Shown piece by piece: positions 15,758 to 25,860 of a DNA stretch of 46,547 nucleotides. The position numbers and the translations under genes are program-made. Every line of letters begins with the position of its first letter. Positions within the stretch are counted from its first letter, which is position 1. The notes below the pieces were generated by a model. The model worked only from the letters and a program-made list of their open reading frames with translations, did not search any database and was not told where the DNA came from. Source of the DNA: Leptotrichia trevisanii DSM 22070 (GTDB lineage: Bacteria; Fusobacteriota; Fusobacteriia; Fusobacteriales; Leptotrichiaceae); contig NZ_KI519444.1 in assembly GCF_000482505.1 (NCBI RefSeq), positions 1-46,547 of the forward strand, in the 5' to 3' direction.

Positions 15758-17557
15758 CTACAACTTACTAATTTCCACTTCCAATTTATCTAACAGAAAA
15801 TTAAACTGTTTTGCCACAGCCTCAATCGTTTCAATTCTTGATAAGTCAACTCCTGCCTTTTTAAGCTGTTCCATTGGGAAGTCATTTCCTCCTGAGCTTA
15901 ATAATTGGATGTATTTGTCTAGTGTTTGTTTTTTCTCGCTTTCATCATTTGAATTTATCATTTTTTCATATAAAATTGCTGATGAGGCAAAGCAAGTGGC
16001 GTATTGATACACGTAAAATGGCGAGTTGAAAAAGTGTGGAACTCTTGCCCAGAAAATATAGATTAAATCATCTTTTTCGATTATATCGCCGTAATATTTG
16101 TCAAACAAATCTTCCATAATTTTGCTCAAAACTTCCGCTGTGATTGGCTCTCCAGCTTCTGCCAGCTTGTGTGCCTGATATTCATAATCTGCCAGCAATG
16201 CCTGAAAATAGAAAGTTCCAACAATATTTCCAATTTCCTGCTCTAGTAATGCGATTCTTTCTTTTGGATCATTGGTATTTTCCAGCATATAGTCGAGCAG
16301 TAATCTTTCGTTAAATGTGGAAGCCACTTCTGCTACGAAAATTGTGTAGTCTGCCATCGAGAAAGGCTGATTTTCATCTGAATAAAGAGTGTGCAAGGTA
16401 TGTCCCAGTTCGTGTGCCAATGTAAATACGCTGTCTAAAGTCTTGTTGTAATTTAGAAGCATATATGGATGAACTCCGTAAACTCCAGCAGAATAGGCTC
16501 CCGTTCTTTTCCCTTTTGCCTCAAATACATCCAGCCAGCCTTCTGAAATCGCTTTTTTCATTTTTTCTACATAATTTTTTCCAAGTGGAGCAACTGAATT
16601 TAACACTATTTCCTGAGCATCATCATACTCGTATTCCTTGTCAAATTCTATTAGGTTAATTGAACCGTCAAAATTATAGTATTTTTCAAGTCCCAAAATT
16701 TTCTTTCTCAATTTTAAATATCTTTGCAATGGTTTTGTATTATTTTTCGCCGTATTGACAAGATTTAAGTAAATTTCTTCTGGAATATTGTCACTTTCCA
16801 GATGGCTTAACAAAAATGAATCGTAATTGTAGGCTTTCTTTGAAGCAATTCCTTTTTGCAAAATTGAGTTATAAATTGCCCCAATCGTATTTTTTTTCTT
16901 TTCATAAATTGTATAAAACGTCTTAAACATCAGTTTTCTGTCTTCCTGATTTCTATTTGTAGACAAAATTTTAGAATAATTGGCAGGCGTTACATCCACT
17001 TTTTCTCCAGAACTAAGCGTAACTTGAGGCCATTCCACATCCGTAACCGTAACTTCCGAATAAATGCTTCTCGGTGCTGAAAAGAATGAGCTGTAGTACG
17101 ACAGCAATTTGCTTTCCTTTTCTTCCAGAATATGCTTTTGCAACCTAAATAAATTTTTTAGTCCAAATCTATAATCATCAAATTCTTTTTTTTCAATCCA
17201 TTTTTGAATATTCTCACGATTATCAACCAGTTCTGAATTTACCCAGGACAATTCAGTAGAAACCTCCGCAAACAAAAACTGCACCTTCTGCAAATGCTCC
17301 ACAGCCTCCTTATCCGATGAGTTCAAATCCCTCGCAAGCTGAGGATACCGATACAATTTATAAGAAATCTTATCCATCTCCTCCTGCTTCTGAAAAAACT
17401 CCAACAACTTCCCTTCGTTCCCAAATTGTCCTTTAAATCCAGCCAATTCTTTTTTCAGTTCACTAACTTTCTCAAAATCCTTCTCCCAAGCTGAATAATT
17501 TTCATAAATATCCGATAAATTCCATTTATATTCCTGTTTTATTTCATTTCTTTCCAT
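15758..17557 (-). CDS. pepF: Oligoendopeptidase F (M3B metallopeptidase)
   Basis: Cytosolic zinc oligopeptidase that trims peptides of roughly 7-17 residues. The 599 residues match the family length. The zinc motif is HELGHTLHTLYS (His 382, Glu 383, His 386), with the third ligand in the following helix (VAEVASTFNERLL). Other PepF marks are the N-terminal WNLSDIYENYSAWEKDF and the C-terminal FFNSPFYVYQYATCFASS segment shaping the peptide channel. ATG 17557 has AAGGAA eight bases upstream. A promoter candidate lies at 17585-17612, so it is probably its own unit. Nothing unusual is seen. Confidence 0.95.
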   Translation of the reverse strand: MERNEIKQEYKWNLSDIYENYSAWEKDFEKVSELKKELAGFKGQFGNEGKLLEFFQKQEEMDKISYKLYRYPQLARDLNSSDKEAVEHLQKVQFLFAEVSTELSWVNSELVDNRENIQKWIEKKEFDDYRFGLKNLFRLQKHILEEKESKLLSYYSSFFSAPRSIYSEVTVTDVEWPQVTLSSGEKVDVTPANYSKILSTNRNQEDRKLMFKTFYTIYEKKKNTIGAIYNSILQKGIASKKAYNYDSFLLSHLESDNIPEEIYLNLVNTAKNNTKPLQRYLKLRKKILGLEKYYNFDGSINLIEFDKEYEYDDAQEIVLNSVAPLGKNYVEKMKKAISEGWLDVFEAKGKRTGAYSAGVYGVHPYMLLNYNKTLDSVFTLAHELGHTLHTLYSDENQPFSMADYTIFVAEVASTFNERLLLDYMLENTNDPKERIALLEQEIGNIVGTFYFQALLADYEYQAHKLAEAGEPITAEVLSKIMEDLFDKYYGDIIEKDDLIYIFWARVPHFFNSPFYVYQYATCFASSAILYEKMINSNDESEKKQTLDKYIQLLSSGGNDFPMEQLKKAGVDLSRIETIEAVAKQFNFLLDKLEVEISKL

Positions 17558-21219: not shown

Positions 21220-22731
21220 CTATTTTAAATTTCCTAAAATATTATTTATTCTAGCCAACGTTCTTTCTTTCCCAATAACTGCGATTACCGTGTACAAATC
21301 CGCTCCTCTGGCTTTTCCTGTAATAACTGCCCTAAGTGGCATCAATACTGCTGCTGGGCCTTCTCCTATTTCATCTTGCAGTTCGTGAAGGATTTGTTTT
21401 GCTTCGTCTTCTGAAATTTCTTCATTTAATTTATTGATTTTTTCAATAAACATTTGAATGGATTTTTTACCAGTTTCTGTTTCAAGTGAAGAAGTTAATC
21501 TTTCAATTGATTTTCTTTCTTTTTTATTCATTCCTTCTTCAATTATTGGCAATTCAAATTCATCTTCAAAATAAATTGCTGCATTTACTGGCAGCTCTTT
21601 TAATGTCTGTGAACCTTCCCTTGTAATTTCCACAATTCTTTTTAATTTTGAAAATTCTTCATCTGGCAAGTTTTCATTTTCATAATAACCAGCTTGCACA
21701 AAATATGGAATAGCCAATTTTGTCAATTCATCCAAATCCTTTAATCTCATGTGATGATTGTTTACCCATCCTAATTTAACCAAGTCAAACACAGGCCCTC
21801 CAAGAGAAATTTTATCAAATGAGAAATTTTGTATCATTTCATCAATAGTAAAAATTTCCTTGTTTTCTCCAAAGCTCCATCCCATAAGTGCAAGGAAGTT
21901 TAGAAGCCCTTCTTTCAAATAACCTTCTTCTCTGTAATAGTTCAACGAAACTGGATTTTTTCTCTTAGAAATTTTAGTCTTATCCGCATTTCTTAAAAGT
22001 GGCATATGATACCATTTAGGCTCATCCCATCCAAATGCTTTGTATAACTGAATATGCTTAGGCGTAGAAGAAATCCACTCTTCTGCTCTTATAACGTGAG
22101 TTATCCCCATCAAATGATCATCAACAATATTTGCCAAATGATAAGTTGGGAATCCATCAGATTTTAACAACACTTGATCATCAATTTTACTATTCTCAAA
22201 TCTAATTTCTCCTCTTAATCCATCATTTACAATAGTTTCTCCTTCATAAGGCATTTTAAGTCTAATAACATAAGGCTCTCCAGCCGCTAATTTTGCTTCC
22301 ACTTCTTCTTTTGACAAGTTTCTGCAATGCCCGTCGTATCCTGGTGCTTGTTTCATAGCTGCTTGTCTTTCTCTTAATTTTTGCAATCTTTCAGCAGTAC
22401 AGAAACAATAATATGCTTCCCCTTTTTCCACCAATTGTTCAGCATAATTCTTATAAATCGAAAATCTTTCCGATTGTCTATAAGGCCCAGCTTTTCCCCC
22501 AACATCTGGACCTTCATCATAATTTAGCCCAAGCCATTTCATCGCATCAAAAATCTGCTGTTCTGAATCTCCTGAAAATCTGGTTCTATCCGTATCTTCT
22601 ATTCTTAAAATAAAATCTCCACCATTATGTTTTACAAACGCATAATTAAATAGTCCAATGTAGGCAGTTCCTACGTGTGGATCTCCAGTTGGAGACGGTG
22701 CTATTCTAACTCTTACTTTTTTTTCTGACAT
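21220..22731 (-). CDS. gltX: Glutamyl-tRNA synthetase
   Basis: Class I aminoacyl-tRNA synthetase that charges tRNA-Glu; in bacteria lacking glutaminyl-tRNA synthetase it also charges tRNA-Gln for later amidation. About 503 residues, typical. The nucleotide-binding motif is [14 protein letters not shown] (HIGH-type, PHVG) near the N-terminus, and the KMSKS-type loop is KISKRKNP (about residue 250). [12 protein letters not shown] and [10 protein letters not shown] are further GluRS marks; the C-terminal helical anticodon domain is complete. ATG 22731 is preferred; ATG 22743 has GGAG only one base away, too close for use. Module 2 of the GNAT pair follows after 25 bases. Confidence 0.96.
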
Positions 22732-22817
22732 TTTTACTTTCATTCTCCTATTCTATTCTTTTTTATTTGCTTATATTATATAATAAAATTTAACTTACTG
22801 CAACTTGCTATAAAAAA

Positions 22818-22928
22818 TTATTGATTTTTATATTCTTTGTCTGGTACTACATCTTCTTTTAAATATTTACCAACTTCTTCCAATTTTTTCTTTACTTCAT
22901 CTGCAGTTATTCCATATTTTTCGAATCT
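22818..22928 (-). pseudogene. Possible 3' remnant of a small gene
   Basis: A stretch upstream of gltX reads, without a start codon, RFEKYGITADEVKKKLEEVG and ends DKEYKNQ before TAA at 22818-22820; it has a protein-like amphipathic composition unlike the surrounding A/T-rich spacer. A stop precedes it in frame, and a neighbouring frame reads GDLIVRDSKNME just upstream, so a frameshift or deletion is possible. No family is recognised. The surrounding gap 22744-23009 is otherwise empty. Confidence 0.35.
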
Positions 22929-23009
22929 CTAACTATCAAGTCGCCATTATCCTTATTTTATTTATTTTTTTCGCAGGAAAATATAGATAACAGCAGTATT
23001 CAATTATAA

Positions 23010-23164
23010 GAGGGTGTCTCATAAGTCAGAAATAATTTTACTAACATAAATGTTATATATTTTCAAAAATCAACAGATATTATTTTTATTGATTTTATAA
23101 ATATAGTAAAATATATAAAATTTATGATTTAGTAATTTTATTTATCTTATAAGACAGCCCCCCT
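23010..23164. mobile_element. MITE-like element with imperfect terminal inverted repeats
   Basis: About 155 bases bounded by long imperfect inverted repeats: left GAGGGTGTCTCATAAG onward (23010-23051), right, read on the minus strand, GGGGCTGTCTTATAAG onward (23121-23164). They match over about 40 bases, including ATTTTACTAA / AAATTACTAA and CATAAAT. The centre is about 70 bases of A/T with no frame. The ends resemble IS termini beginning GGGCTGTCTCATAAG, so a non-autonomous derivative of an IS is likely. No clear target duplication was found. It abuts the yjdF stop, where it may also act as a terminator. Confidence 0.6.
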
Positions 23165-23166
23165 TC

Positions 23167-23583
23167 TTATCTTCCTCTATGTTTCTTTTTCTTTTTCTCC
23201 TGTTTCAATAAAAATTTTTTCTGTTTTTCAAGTTCTTTTTCTTGTTTTGTTTTAACTTTCCGTTCCCTTTTATTCTCTTCGTGTTGTAATTTTAAAATTT
23301 CTTCCGATTTTTTCAAAAATTTTTTACTTTGAAGCTCTTTTTTTATTTCCCTTTGTCTACGTTTTGGATTTTTGGCTTTCTCATTAAAATTTGACTTCAT
23401 TTCATTACTAAATCGAAGATTATAAAACTTTTTTAATATAAAATCATAAATTTCATATTCTTTAGGTTCCGAACCAAAAGTTACTTTACAAACTGATAAA
23501 TTATCATTTTCAAAATTTTCAAAAATTCCTACCCAAAAAGGATTTTCAAAAAAAACTGTCAATTTTCCTGAAATCTTTCTCAT
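23167..23583 (-). CDS. yjdF: YjdF family protein (DUF2992)
   Basis: The 138-residue protein matches the YjdF/DUF2992 family: KLTVFFENPFWVGIFE at the N-terminus, VTFGSEPKEYEIYDFIL in the middle, LRFS, then a very basic Lys/Arg/Glu tail (about 75-138, including NPKRRQREIKKE) with coiled-coil character. In Firmicutes yjdF genes stand behind the yjdF (azaaromatic-sensing) riboswitch; the protein function is unknown, possibly handling toxic aromatic compounds. ATG 23583 has the strong ribosome site AAGGAGGC (23591-23598). The leader contains an exact complement of that site (see 23584-23690). The MITE-like element follows at once. Function beyond family membership is not known. Confidence 0.85.
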   Translation of the reverse strand: MRKISGKLTVFFENPFWVGIFENFENDNLSVCKVTFGSEPKEYEIYDFILKKFYNLRFSNEMKSNFNEKAKNPKRRQREIKKELQSKKFLKKSEEILKLQHEENKRERKVKTKQEKELEKQKKFLLKQEKKKKKHRGR

Positions 23584-23690
23584 AATTTCAGCCTCCTTAA
23601 AAAAATTTATAATAAAGAATGGACAACCTAAGGAGGCAGGTTACTTACATTACTGCGTCTGGACTACCAACCAGAACTGTGTTTTTATCT
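23584..23690 (-). ncRNA. Candidate yjdF-type riboswitch leader
   Basis: The leader of yjdF is unusually GC-rich and structured for this genome. In transcript order it has a hairpin TCTGG-TTGGTAGT-CCAGA (about 23658-23675), then GCAG...CTGC, then AACCT-GCCTCCTT-AGGTT, whose loop GCCTCCTT (23630-23637) is an exact 8-base complement of the ribosome site AAGGAGGC (23591-23598); pairing can extend by an A-U and two G-U. Two exclusive states (loop closed in its own hairpin, or paired with the ribosome site) would switch translation. The known yjdF RNA sits in front of the same gene family, so that class is the first guess; I could not match its consensus from memory. Confidence 0.6.
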
Positions 23691-23895
23691 TTATTTATAT
23701 TTATCAACTTTTTACTTTTTTATCTTGCAACAAGAACAAGAATTAAAAACCCTTTACTCAATTATTTCCAAAAGTTCTTAAAGTATTTTTTTTACTTTTT
23801 TAGGCACTCTTTATCTCTATACCCAAAACTTACCATCACTAAAACTCCGTATTTCTTGAATTCAAATACACTTTTTTGGAAAAACATTTTCTACT

Positions 23896-24504
23896 TTAAT
23901 ATCTTATAGCTCTTTTATATTTATCAAAAGCATCACTTATTGCCTGCTTGTATTCTTCCTTTTCATAAAGATTTTCTAAAATATATGAATAATATATGGA
24001 CTCGCTAATCCGTTCTTTCTTATCTAAATCAAAAAACTGAACAATTACAAATTTATATTTTGTTCCCTTATCTTTGCACCACTTCCCAATAGTTTCAATA
24101 ATATCAACTCTATCAATAATAATTTCCTTAGCAGTTTCTTCTTTATTTGCAGGATCATTAACTGCTTGCATTACAAAAAATCGTCCATCAGCTGTTACAG
24201 CAGTTATTATTGAATTTTTAAATTTTTTTTGGATAATCTGTTTTATTTCAGTCACATTTTGATCACTTAATTGTTTATAATCAGAACCTCCATCTACCTT
24301 AACTTTCATTAAATCTTTCTCATAAGCTGCTTCTGTTTCTATTCTTTTTTTCTTTGTTTCTTCCGATAACTGTTCTGAACTTTCTTGCTTTTGACTTGTT
24401 TGTTCAGCTGTATTATTTGGCCTATTTTCATTTTCATTTTGATTATTTTTATTACCACACGAAAATGCCATTACCAGCAACATCATTACAAAAATTTTTT
24501 TCAT
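23896..24504 (-). CDS. Predicted lipoprotein, paralogue of the one at 25323-25823
   Basis: The 202-residue protein carries a lipoprotein signal (MKKIFVMMLLVMAFSCGNKN, Cys near 16) and an Asn/Gln/Glu/Ser-rich linker (about 17-50), then a conserved domain: LMKVKVDGGSDYKQLSDQNV, AVTADGRFFVMQAV, IIIDRVDIIETIGKWCKDKG, YKFVIVQFFDLDKKERISES and IYYSYILENLYEKEEYKQAI. The second copy lacks the linker and is about half identical over the domain, including the single Cys in the (K/E)WC motif. No family is recognised. ATG 24504 is preferred over ATG 24546 because it gives a proper lipoprotein signal and has AGAGGA upstream. Export to the membrane surface is inferred. Confidence 0.75.
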   Translation of the reverse strand: MKKIFVMMLLVMAFSCGNKNNQNENENRPNNTAEQTSQKQESSEQLSEETKKKRIETEAAYEKDLMKVKVDGGSDYKQLSDQNVTEIKQIIQKKFKNSIITAVTADGRFFVMQAVNDPANKEETAKEIIIDRVDIIETIGKWCKDKGTKYKFVIVQFFDLDKKERISESIYYSYILENLYEKEEYKQAISDAFDKYKRAIRY

Positions 24505-24564
24505 AAAAATCCTCTTTCTGCAATAAATTAATTTGAGTATATTCAAAATTCAAGTATTCAAAAA

Positions 24565-25239
24565 CTACTCAACAACCTCATAAACTTCCGAAAGTTCTCT
24601 TCTAGTTTTTGGAGTAATATCTTCATCTCTATATCCAAAACTTACAAAATATGAAATTCCATATTCCTTCAAATCAAAGATACCTTTTTCAGAGAAGTAT
24701 TTTTCAGCCATTTCTTTATTAAATCCTTCAATTGCACAGCTGTCAACCCCAAGAGCTGCAGCCATATTCATCATATTTACCATTGCAATGTAAGTCTGTT
24801 TTGAAGCCCAGTCAAATAATGCTCTTTCATTTTCCAGCAACTTAAAATGATTTTCTTGAAATTTTGTAAAAAATTCTTTTCTAATCTTCAAATTTTCATC
24901 AGAAATATTTTTTATTTCCTTCCCAATTTTTTCAAAATACTTGCTATCACCAGTAACACCTTTTCTAGCCAATACCATAACAATATGGCTCGCCCCATTC
25001 AAGCTGTTAATTGCTCCCCAAGCAAACTCTCTCATATCATTCAGCATTTCCTCATTTTTCACAAGAATAAATTTCCAAGGCTCAAGCCCAAAAGAACTAG
25101 GAGAAAGTCTCCCTGCCTCAATAATTGCCTTAAAATCTTCGTTTGAAACAACTTTTGCCTTATCGTATTTTTTGCACGCATATCTTCTGTTAAATATTTC
25201 AAACATTTCCTTTTTTGTTAATTCTTTATCTTTTAGCAT
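24565..25239 (-). CDS. Nitroreductase-family NAD(P)H-dependent oxidoreductase (NfsB-like)
   Basis: FMN-dependent nitroreductase/oxidoreductase of about 224 residues. FMN-site elements: NRRYACKKYDKAKVV near the N-terminus (Arg for the phosphate), EAGRLSPSSFGLEPWKFILV (about 42-61), and GVDSCAIEGFNKEM with ISYFVSFGYRDEDITPKTRR at the C-terminus. These are NfsB-type signatures. Physiological substrate unknown; such enzymes reduce nitroaromatics, quinones or act as dihydropteridine reductase. ATG 25239 is preferred over ATG 25269, which has no ribosome site. The gene lies between two paralogous lipoprotein genes, 83 and 60 bases away. Confidence 0.92.
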   Translation of the reverse strand: MLKDKELTKKEMFEIFNRRYACKKYDKAKVVSNEDFKAIIEAGRLSPSSFGLEPWKFILVKNEEMLNDMREFAWGAINSLNGASHIVMVLARKGVTGDSKYFEKIGKEIKNISDENLKIRKEFFTKFQENHFKLLENERALFDWASKQTYIAMVNMMNMAAALGVDSCAIEGFNKEMAEKYFSEKGIFDLKEYGISYFVSFGYRDEDITPKTRRELSEVYEVVE

Positions 25240-25322
25240 TTTTATCACTTCTTTCTGTATATTTATCATATCTTATATAAACTTTACTATTTTTTTATTT
25301 ATTTAAAAAATTATTTTCTATT

Positions 25323-25823
25323 CTAAAATCTTGTAGCTTTTGAATACTGAGAAAACCCTTCTTTAAGTGCTTTTTTATAATCTTCATCTTCGTATTTGAT
25401 TTGTAAAATATGAGAATAATAAATAGAACGACTAATTTCTTTATTCTGTTTTTTATCATAAAATTGATTAATTATAAATTTAAACTCTATACCCTTTTCC
25501 TCACACCATTCTCCAATGGTATCAATAATATCTACTCTATCAATTGTAACTTCTTTTCCTGTTAATTCTTTATTATTACCATCGGTTACGTTTTTTCTTA
25601 TAAAAAATCGTCCATCTTTTGTTACGGCTATTAATTCTAAATTGTCAAATTTTTTCCGAAGCATCTTTTTTATCTCTTTTACATTACTCTCGCTAAATTG
25701 TTTAGAATTATCGTACCCGCTAACTTCAATATTCATTAATTCTTTTTCATATATTTTTTCTTCTTTATTACCACACGAAACCAAAAACAACAAAAATAAT
25801 AAAAATAATCCTTTTTTTATCAT
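25323..25823 (-). CDS. Predicted lipoprotein, shorter paralogue of 23896-24504
   Basis: The 166-residue protein has the lipoprotein signal MIKKGLFLLFLLFLVSCGNK (Cys near 17) and almost no linker before the domain shared with its paralogue: LMNIEVSGYDNSKQFSESNV, AVTKDGRFFIRKNV, VTIDRVDIIDTIGEWCEEKG, FKFIINQFYDKKQNKEISRS, IYYSHILQ. The alternating hydrophobic strands and conserved acidic and aromatic positions suggest a compact alpha/beta domain held at the membrane by lipid. Family unrecognised. ATG 25823 has AAGGAA upstream and restores the signal; an earlier in-frame ATG at 25847 would bury it. It follows nfo by 37 bases, so it may be in that operon. Confidence 0.75.
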   Translation of the reverse strand: MIKKGLFLLFLLFLVSCGNKEEKIYEKELMNIEVSGYDNSKQFSESNVKEIKKMLRKKFDNLELIAVTKDGRFFIRKNVTDGNNKELTGKEVTIDRVDIIDTIGEWCEEKGIEFKFIINQFYDKKQNKEISRSIYYSHILQIKYEDEDYKKALKEGFSQYSKATRF

Positions 25824-25860
25824 GCACCGATTCCTTTCATACTTCAAATAATAATAAATT

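Follow-up and report, generated by a model that had tools for sequence, protein, structure and literature searches.

An azaaromatic (yjdF) riboswitch ahead of yjdF in Leptotrichia trevisanii, with a P4 segment complementary to the ribosome site

Earlier work placed the yjdF motif in Firmicutes (Weinberg 2010, PMC2864571), and examples have since been described in Actinobacteria, Fusobacteria, Spirochaetes and Synergistetes as well (Li 2016, PMC4793209, whose main text does not contain the name Leptotrichia). As the mechanism is described in PMC4793209 and PMC9142559, nucleotides of P4 pair with the ribosome-binding site (RBS) when ligand is absent, and ligand switches translation on. The P4:RBS complement is reported as 11 nt in Bacillus subtilis (PMC4793209) and as generally 9–11 nt (PMC9142559), and the description of the crystal structure locates an RBS-complementary motif in P4 (PMC10987639). 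Here, we analyse a stretch of 46,547 bases from L. trevisanii DSM 22070 (the window) and conclude that it very probably carries an azaaromatic riboswitch of the yjdF class that turns on translation of yjdF.

Class membership and the identity of the controlled gene were computed directly. When the whole window was scanned against all 4,227 Rfam families, RF01764 (azaaromatic/yjdF riboswitch) was the only family above threshold, scoring 92 bits in cmscan against a gathering cut-off of 45 (E = 7.3e-18 over the window). The match lies on the minus strand and is the only one to RF01764 in the organism's own genome; no tRNA genes were found in the window. Directly downstream of the aptamer stands yjdF, whose product matches PF11208 (DUF2992/YjdF) over profile positions 1–132 of 132 (E = 6e-46). 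The original prediction that the leader is a yjdF RNA ahead of a yjdF gene is thereby borne out, the covariance search that it proposed having given a full-length match above cut-off. Its suggestion of a variant finds no such backing, as the match covers model positions 1–101 of 101 and so is no outlying variant. Nor would the locus extend the range of the class into fusobacteria, because members from Fusobacteria were already reported in 2016 (PMC4793209). It appears to be a typical representative of an established class of riboswitch, both class and mechanism being already published.

In its anatomy (Table 1), the locus spans the whole RF01764 model and has the four stems and the conserved joining strands of the class, as well as its site before yjdF and a P4 complementary to the RBS. 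It departs from the class in P3, which has 3 pairs as against 6 in the RF01764 consensus, and in the G(P4)-C(SD) pair beside GGAGG, where 26 of 56 distinct leaders have C-G. Aligned with the consensus, the pocket sequence UAAAAACACAG, the GGUAGU loop, AGUAACC and GUCC are all present, and these letters are identical in all eight members of the genus that carry the RNA. Their roles in the pocket would be those assigned from PMC10987639, and we equate the P2 hairpin with the P2b/L2b ligand-pocket element in that crystal structure. In our reading, the register of P4 agrees with the residues named there.

Table 1. Positions in the window of the riboswitch elements, the competing helices and the controlled gene
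Feature	Position	Strand	Basis
Azaaromatic (yjdF) riboswitch aptamer, RF01764	23603..23698	-	cmscan, Rfam alignment
P1 5′ strand, 8 pairs with 23611-23618	23688..23695	-	Rfam alignment, pair list
P1 3′ strand	23611..23618	-	Rfam alignment, pair list
P2 hairpin, 6 pairs, one bulged U, conserved GGUAGU loop	23657..23677	-	Rfam alignment, pair list
P3, 3 pairs (G-U, C-G, A-U), GUAA cap	23647..23656	-	Rfam alignment, pair list
P4: GCCU / CCUU loop / AGGU	23626..23637	-	Rfam structure line
Anti-SD GCCTCCTT; 4 nt of P4 5′ strand and 4 nt of P4 loop	23630..23637	-	
Predicted OFF-state helix, 5′ arm, 11 nt	23627..23637	-	MFE fold, duplex
Predicted OFF-state helix, 3′ arm, including Shine-Dalgarno AAGGAGGC at 23591-23598	23591..23601	-	MFE fold, duplex
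Alternative hairpin AACCT-GCCTCCTT-AGGTT (RNA: AACCU/GCCUCCUU/AGGUU)	23625..23642	-	outside family model
yjdF (DUF2992), 138 aa, controlled gene	23167..23583	-	PF11208 profile

Central to the proposed control is the 8-mer GCCTCCTT, which, as originally noted, is perfectly complementary to AAGGAGGC, the ribosome site of yjdF; this site ends 7 nt ahead of the yjdF ATG at 23583. With both strands of the window considered, one further copy of either 8-mer is found, at 17304. Shuffling with dinucleotides preserved, 20,000 times for each sequence, yielded the 8-mer in 26 cases for the 122-nt leader and in 31 for the 297-nt intergenic gap. Of the mechanically called ORFs in the window, 11 reach 100 aa or more and have a Shine-Dalgarno (SD)-like site; yjdF is the only one of these with an exact 8-mer SD complement within 120 nt upstream. 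The pairing extends to a helix of 11 contiguous pairs between GCCUCCUUAGG and UUUAAGGAGGC, likewise computed here; with 9 Watson-Crick and 2 G-U pairs, it gives the P4 segment the complementarity to the RBS described for the class.

The predicted energies are consistent with a default OFF state. The minimum free energy (MFE) fold of the leader is the OFF helix, at −22.5 kcal/mol, with a mean unpaired probability of 0.002 for the SD. The Rfam aptamer fold with the SD free comes to −13.3 kcal/mol, tertiary and ligand energy excluded, and the best SD-free fold to −17.1 kcal/mol; the apo RNA is therefore predicted to be OFF. These values fit an RNA that would stay OFF unless ligand pays the difference. 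It had also been claimed that structure is much richer in the leader than in the gap around it. This is not borne out: the 119-nt leader, folded alone, has a z of −0.72 relative to dinucleotide shuffles of itself, 38 of the 200 shuffles folding as well or better, and stability above chance is not seen.

By analogy with the published class, ligand binding, a pocket, the ON direction and a response to toxic compounds would be expected at this locus too. Without ligand, GCCUCCUUAGG in the P4 segment would pair with UUUAAGGAGGC and bury the ribosome site. A planar azaaromatic compound would enter the pocket made by the P2 loop and strands J1/2, J3/4 and J4/1, and stabilise the four-stem aptamer. 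The anti-SD would then be held in P4, half in the stem (GCCU/AGGU) and half in the loop (CCUU), leaving the ribosome site free so that YjdF can be made.

Two exclusive states had been proposed from the outset, and they are supported by the mechanism described for the class (PMC4793209, PMC9142559, PMC10987639). The small hairpin drawn for the open state is a different matter: it is not the aptamer P4, which is GCCU-CCUU-AGGU. The AACC that it uses is unpaired in the RF01764 family model, and the crystal structure, if we have matched the positions correctly, places AACC in J3/4 and the base of P4 (PMC10987639). The hairpin can form, at −2.8 kcal/mol in isolation versus −2.3 for the Rfam P4, and a longer version of it is present in the most favourable SD-free fold. 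It is possibly a register-shifted competitor, rather than the ligand-bound P4.

According to another proposal for the class (JBC 2022), such aptamers activate translation chiefly through tRNA mimicry and ribosome binding, SD release being secondary. In support of that proposal, aptamers of S. aureus and S. ratti are reported to bind the ribosome, and tRNA-like leaders to enhance expression (PMC9142559); P1 at the present locus has 8 pairs, the best-working acceptor-stem length in that paper. P3, the equivalent of the anticodon stem, has 3 pairs as against a best-working 5, so that the tRNA-like combination of an 8-pair acceptor and a 5-pair anticodon stem is absent, although the S. ratti member is described as departing from the best stem lengths and still binding ribosomes, less well (PMC9142559). 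Also counting against tRNA mimicry as the main route are the predicted 11-pair SD helix, its core conserved in the genus, and the description in PMC9142559 of P4:RBS pairing in the off state, which makes the two routes compatible. We consider it unlikely that mimicry predominates here, and favour release of the ribosome site as the main step.

Control by transcription termination is very unlikely. For riboswitches whose members come mostly from Firmicutes, translational control is called unusual (PMC4793209), which would favour termination, but in a consensus scan of 22700-25400 the minus strand showed nothing resembling a terminator from the aptamer to yjdF; the scan did pick out a terminator-like site at 23658-23675 on the plus strand.

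The riboswitch and its gene occur together within the genus. In a panel of 98 genomes of the phylum, scanned for RF01764 under stricter filters at the cost of some weak matches, eight genomes score above threshold, all of them among the 13 of the window's genus and including the window's own. All eight have yjdF; within the genus, then, the RNA is present in 8/8 genomes with the gene, and no match was found in the 5/5 without it. PF11208 occurs in 11 of the 98, namely the same eight plus a genome of another family (G046), one with a partial match (G089) and one with a match below cut-off (G011). No RF01764 match was found at the yjdF loci of G089 and G011. The G046 contig begins partway through the leader; the 44 bases at its start match model positions 58–101 at 33 bits, below the cut-off of 45, and its P4 sequence CCCCUCC faces GGAGGGG in its SD. 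Because the completeness of this assembly is 70% and its contamination 4%, assignment to that family is uncertain.

Conservation of the leader in relatives, whose absence together with the lack of a model match had been named as refuting the original prediction, is clear: the leader is nearly invariant in eight genus members while the sequence upstream diverges. Of the 96 window positions in the aptamer, 91 are invariant in all eight, and one genome (G078) has a single T inserted between P4 and GUCC. In five of seven comparisons, leaving out those with L004 and L008, identity is 98–100% in the leader, 92–98% in the first 390 nt of yjdF and 48–83% in the 152 nt upstream; that conservation of yjdF comes close to that of the leader is a point against the riboswitch reading. 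The core of the alternative helix is likewise conserved, the 8-mer match to the SD being exact in six of eight genus members and changed from A to G, leaving a G-U pair, in the other two. Decay of the riboswitch does occur in the genus, since in one genome without yjdF (G080) the leader has been reduced to its 3′ end, SD included. That the window's copy is such a relic is nevertheless highly improbable: it is complete, yjdF is open, and the YjdF protein is 87–96% identical to those of the seven other genus members that encode one.

Outside the genus, the closest reporter-tested system is the B. subtilis yjdF leader (PMC4793209). The likeness, which is to the published description and not to an alignment of the two sequences, consists in 11 contiguous RBS-complementary nucleotides in the P4 region and a downstream DUF2992 gene, and the B. 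subtilis control genome matches both RF01764 and PF11208; the difference is in host phylum. In a collection of species genomes, at least 244 stretches encode YjdF relatives, of which the best 80 were kept; this list may omit genomes near the window's, so the true nearest relative need not be among them. The 80 loci are mostly from Lachnospiraceae and other Clostridia, some titled only 'bacterium', and their proteins are 50–59% identical to the window's. With a model built from the genus, 65 of these 80 loci give an aptamer match at E up to 1 and 59 at E up to 0.01. Four of the 15 loci without it (L040, L060, L072, L099) have less than 150 nt before the gene, and the five of them that were run against Rfam at the gathering threshold (L040, L043, L047, L059, L061) gave no RF01764 match. 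Unlike the Clostridia leaders, in which the P3 interval is 15–16 nt in the 31 that could be parsed, all eight genus members have an interval of 11 nt; in total, 39 of 73 leaders were parsed for this feature and 34 were not. The base after the SD GGAGG also differs, being A or G in Clostridia where read and C in the window's genus.

The 73 leaders (65 plus the eight of the genus) comprise 56 distinct P4/SD pairs. At least 6 contiguous Watson-Crick P4:SD pairs are present in 55 of the 56, the longest run being only 4 in the remaining one. When partners are swapped, the mean duplex energy changes from −14.57 kcal/mol for own partners to −13.62 (sd 0.18), and none of 10,000 swaps reaches the former, kinship uncorrected. 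The longest Watson-Crick run shows no significant effect in the same test (6.96 versus 6.87, reached in 1195 of 10,000 swaps), again with kinship uncorrected. Next to GGAGG, the pair is G(P4)-C(SD) in the window's genus (6/56), C-G in 26/56 and C facing A in 2/56; another 22/56 are unparsed at this flank, 19 of them with an SD A facing C as judged by eye. On the other flank, G faces A in 22 of the 56 distinct leaders. Many relatives thus lack pairing beside GGAGG, which counts against the riboswitch reading. The exchange of G-C for C-G beside GGAGG is consistent with a compensated change, with few independent events. That the leader is non-functional and its complementarity due to chance, for which one could cite the fact that CCTCC-like stretches complement any strong SD and that swapped partners still pair well, is so improbable as to be negligible, given the full-length RF01764 match, the rarity of the 8-mer in shuffles (26/20,000) and among SD-bearing ORFs (1/11), and a leader that is conserved while the sequence upstream diverges.

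Among these relatives, four of the 73 leaders (L053, L055, L056, L065) have 71–109 nt between aptamer and start, as against 28–40 in the others, and by eye carry similar inserts before the ribosome site. Copies are also found on mobile elements. A yjdF riboswitch with a YjdF-like gene occurs in two Streptococcus phage records (L100 5920-6482 and L101 5994-6520); the Javan105 copy lies between tail genes and the tape-measure gene, and the Javan311 copy at the record end. Javan102, 108 and 112 have the same match as Javan105, and we take Javan105 and Javan311 to be prophages. Plasmid records encoding a YjdF relative number 27. On a Lactiplantibacillus plantarum plasmid (L102 5006-5540) a yjdF riboswitch is found with a YjdF gene, and a Paraclostridium plasmid (L103 4993-5700) has a full-length RF01764 match followed by a broken yjdF-like reading frame, which is missing from the incomplete gene table of PLSDB; this record also has a T-box leader at 213-476. 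The control genome of Deinobacterium chartae matches both RF01764 and PF11208, and belongs to a phylum that section 5 of PMC4793209 does not list. Separately, another genome of the phylum (L019 2218-2286) has a RAGATH-18 RNA match of 54.5 bits against a cut-off of 44.9.

The surroundings of the riboswitch vary within the genus. In all eight members, gltX stands downstream of yjdF in the same orientation, at up to 1 kb in four and about 7 to 19 kb in four. A second nitroreductase gene stands directly upstream of the leader, near full length in two of the eight (L004, L008) and as a 3′ remnant in six, including the window, where its decayed 3′ end lies in the A/T-rich gap upstream of the leader, at 23753-23890. 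Further upstream, two paralogous small genes (23896-24546 and 25323-25847; 52% identical over 145 aa) flank a nitroreductase; both appear lipoprotein-like by eye, and the product of 23896-24546 has no Pfam match. In three of the genomes without yjdF (G071, G072, G077), the region before gltX contains nfo, a nitroreductase and a lipoprotein-like gene but no yjdF; in a fourth (G075), none of the nfo, nitroreductase or lipoprotein-like neighbours was found in the 16.5 kb examined. In the fifth, G080, the leader remnant with its SD and ATG is left behind a nitroreductase (L132 1059-1470; G080:C1, about 863058-863470), followed by a fragment that is transposase-like by eye. A tblastn search (E up to 1e-4) for the nitroreductase, the two lipoprotein-like proteins, GltX and Nfo, reaching at most 4 kb to either side of yjdF and less at contig ends, found them in 0 of the 80 loci, so the neighbourhood looks particular to the window's genus. 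Five nucleotides past the yjdF stop, the window also has a 152-bp imperfect palindrome (23010-23161), whose 52-nt arms (23012-23063 and 23108-23159) are 73% complementary; with five near-full copies in the genome including itself, at 94–100% identity, it resembles a MITE-like element.

Finally, the locus presents the class complete as published, linked with yjdF, in what is probably a second phylum. A slight further interest lies in the minimal P3 and the adjoining nitroreductase. It is improbable, in our estimation, that the cut-down P3 makes the riboswitch of this genus work by ribosome-site release alone and that the upstream nitroreductase also shared its response. If both were true, a nitroreductase in the same response would point to a nitro- or aza-aromatic natural signal, and the cut-down P3 would be a natural test separating the two published mechanisms. 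A naturally minimal P3 could in any case help to separate SD release from the tRNA-mimic proposal.
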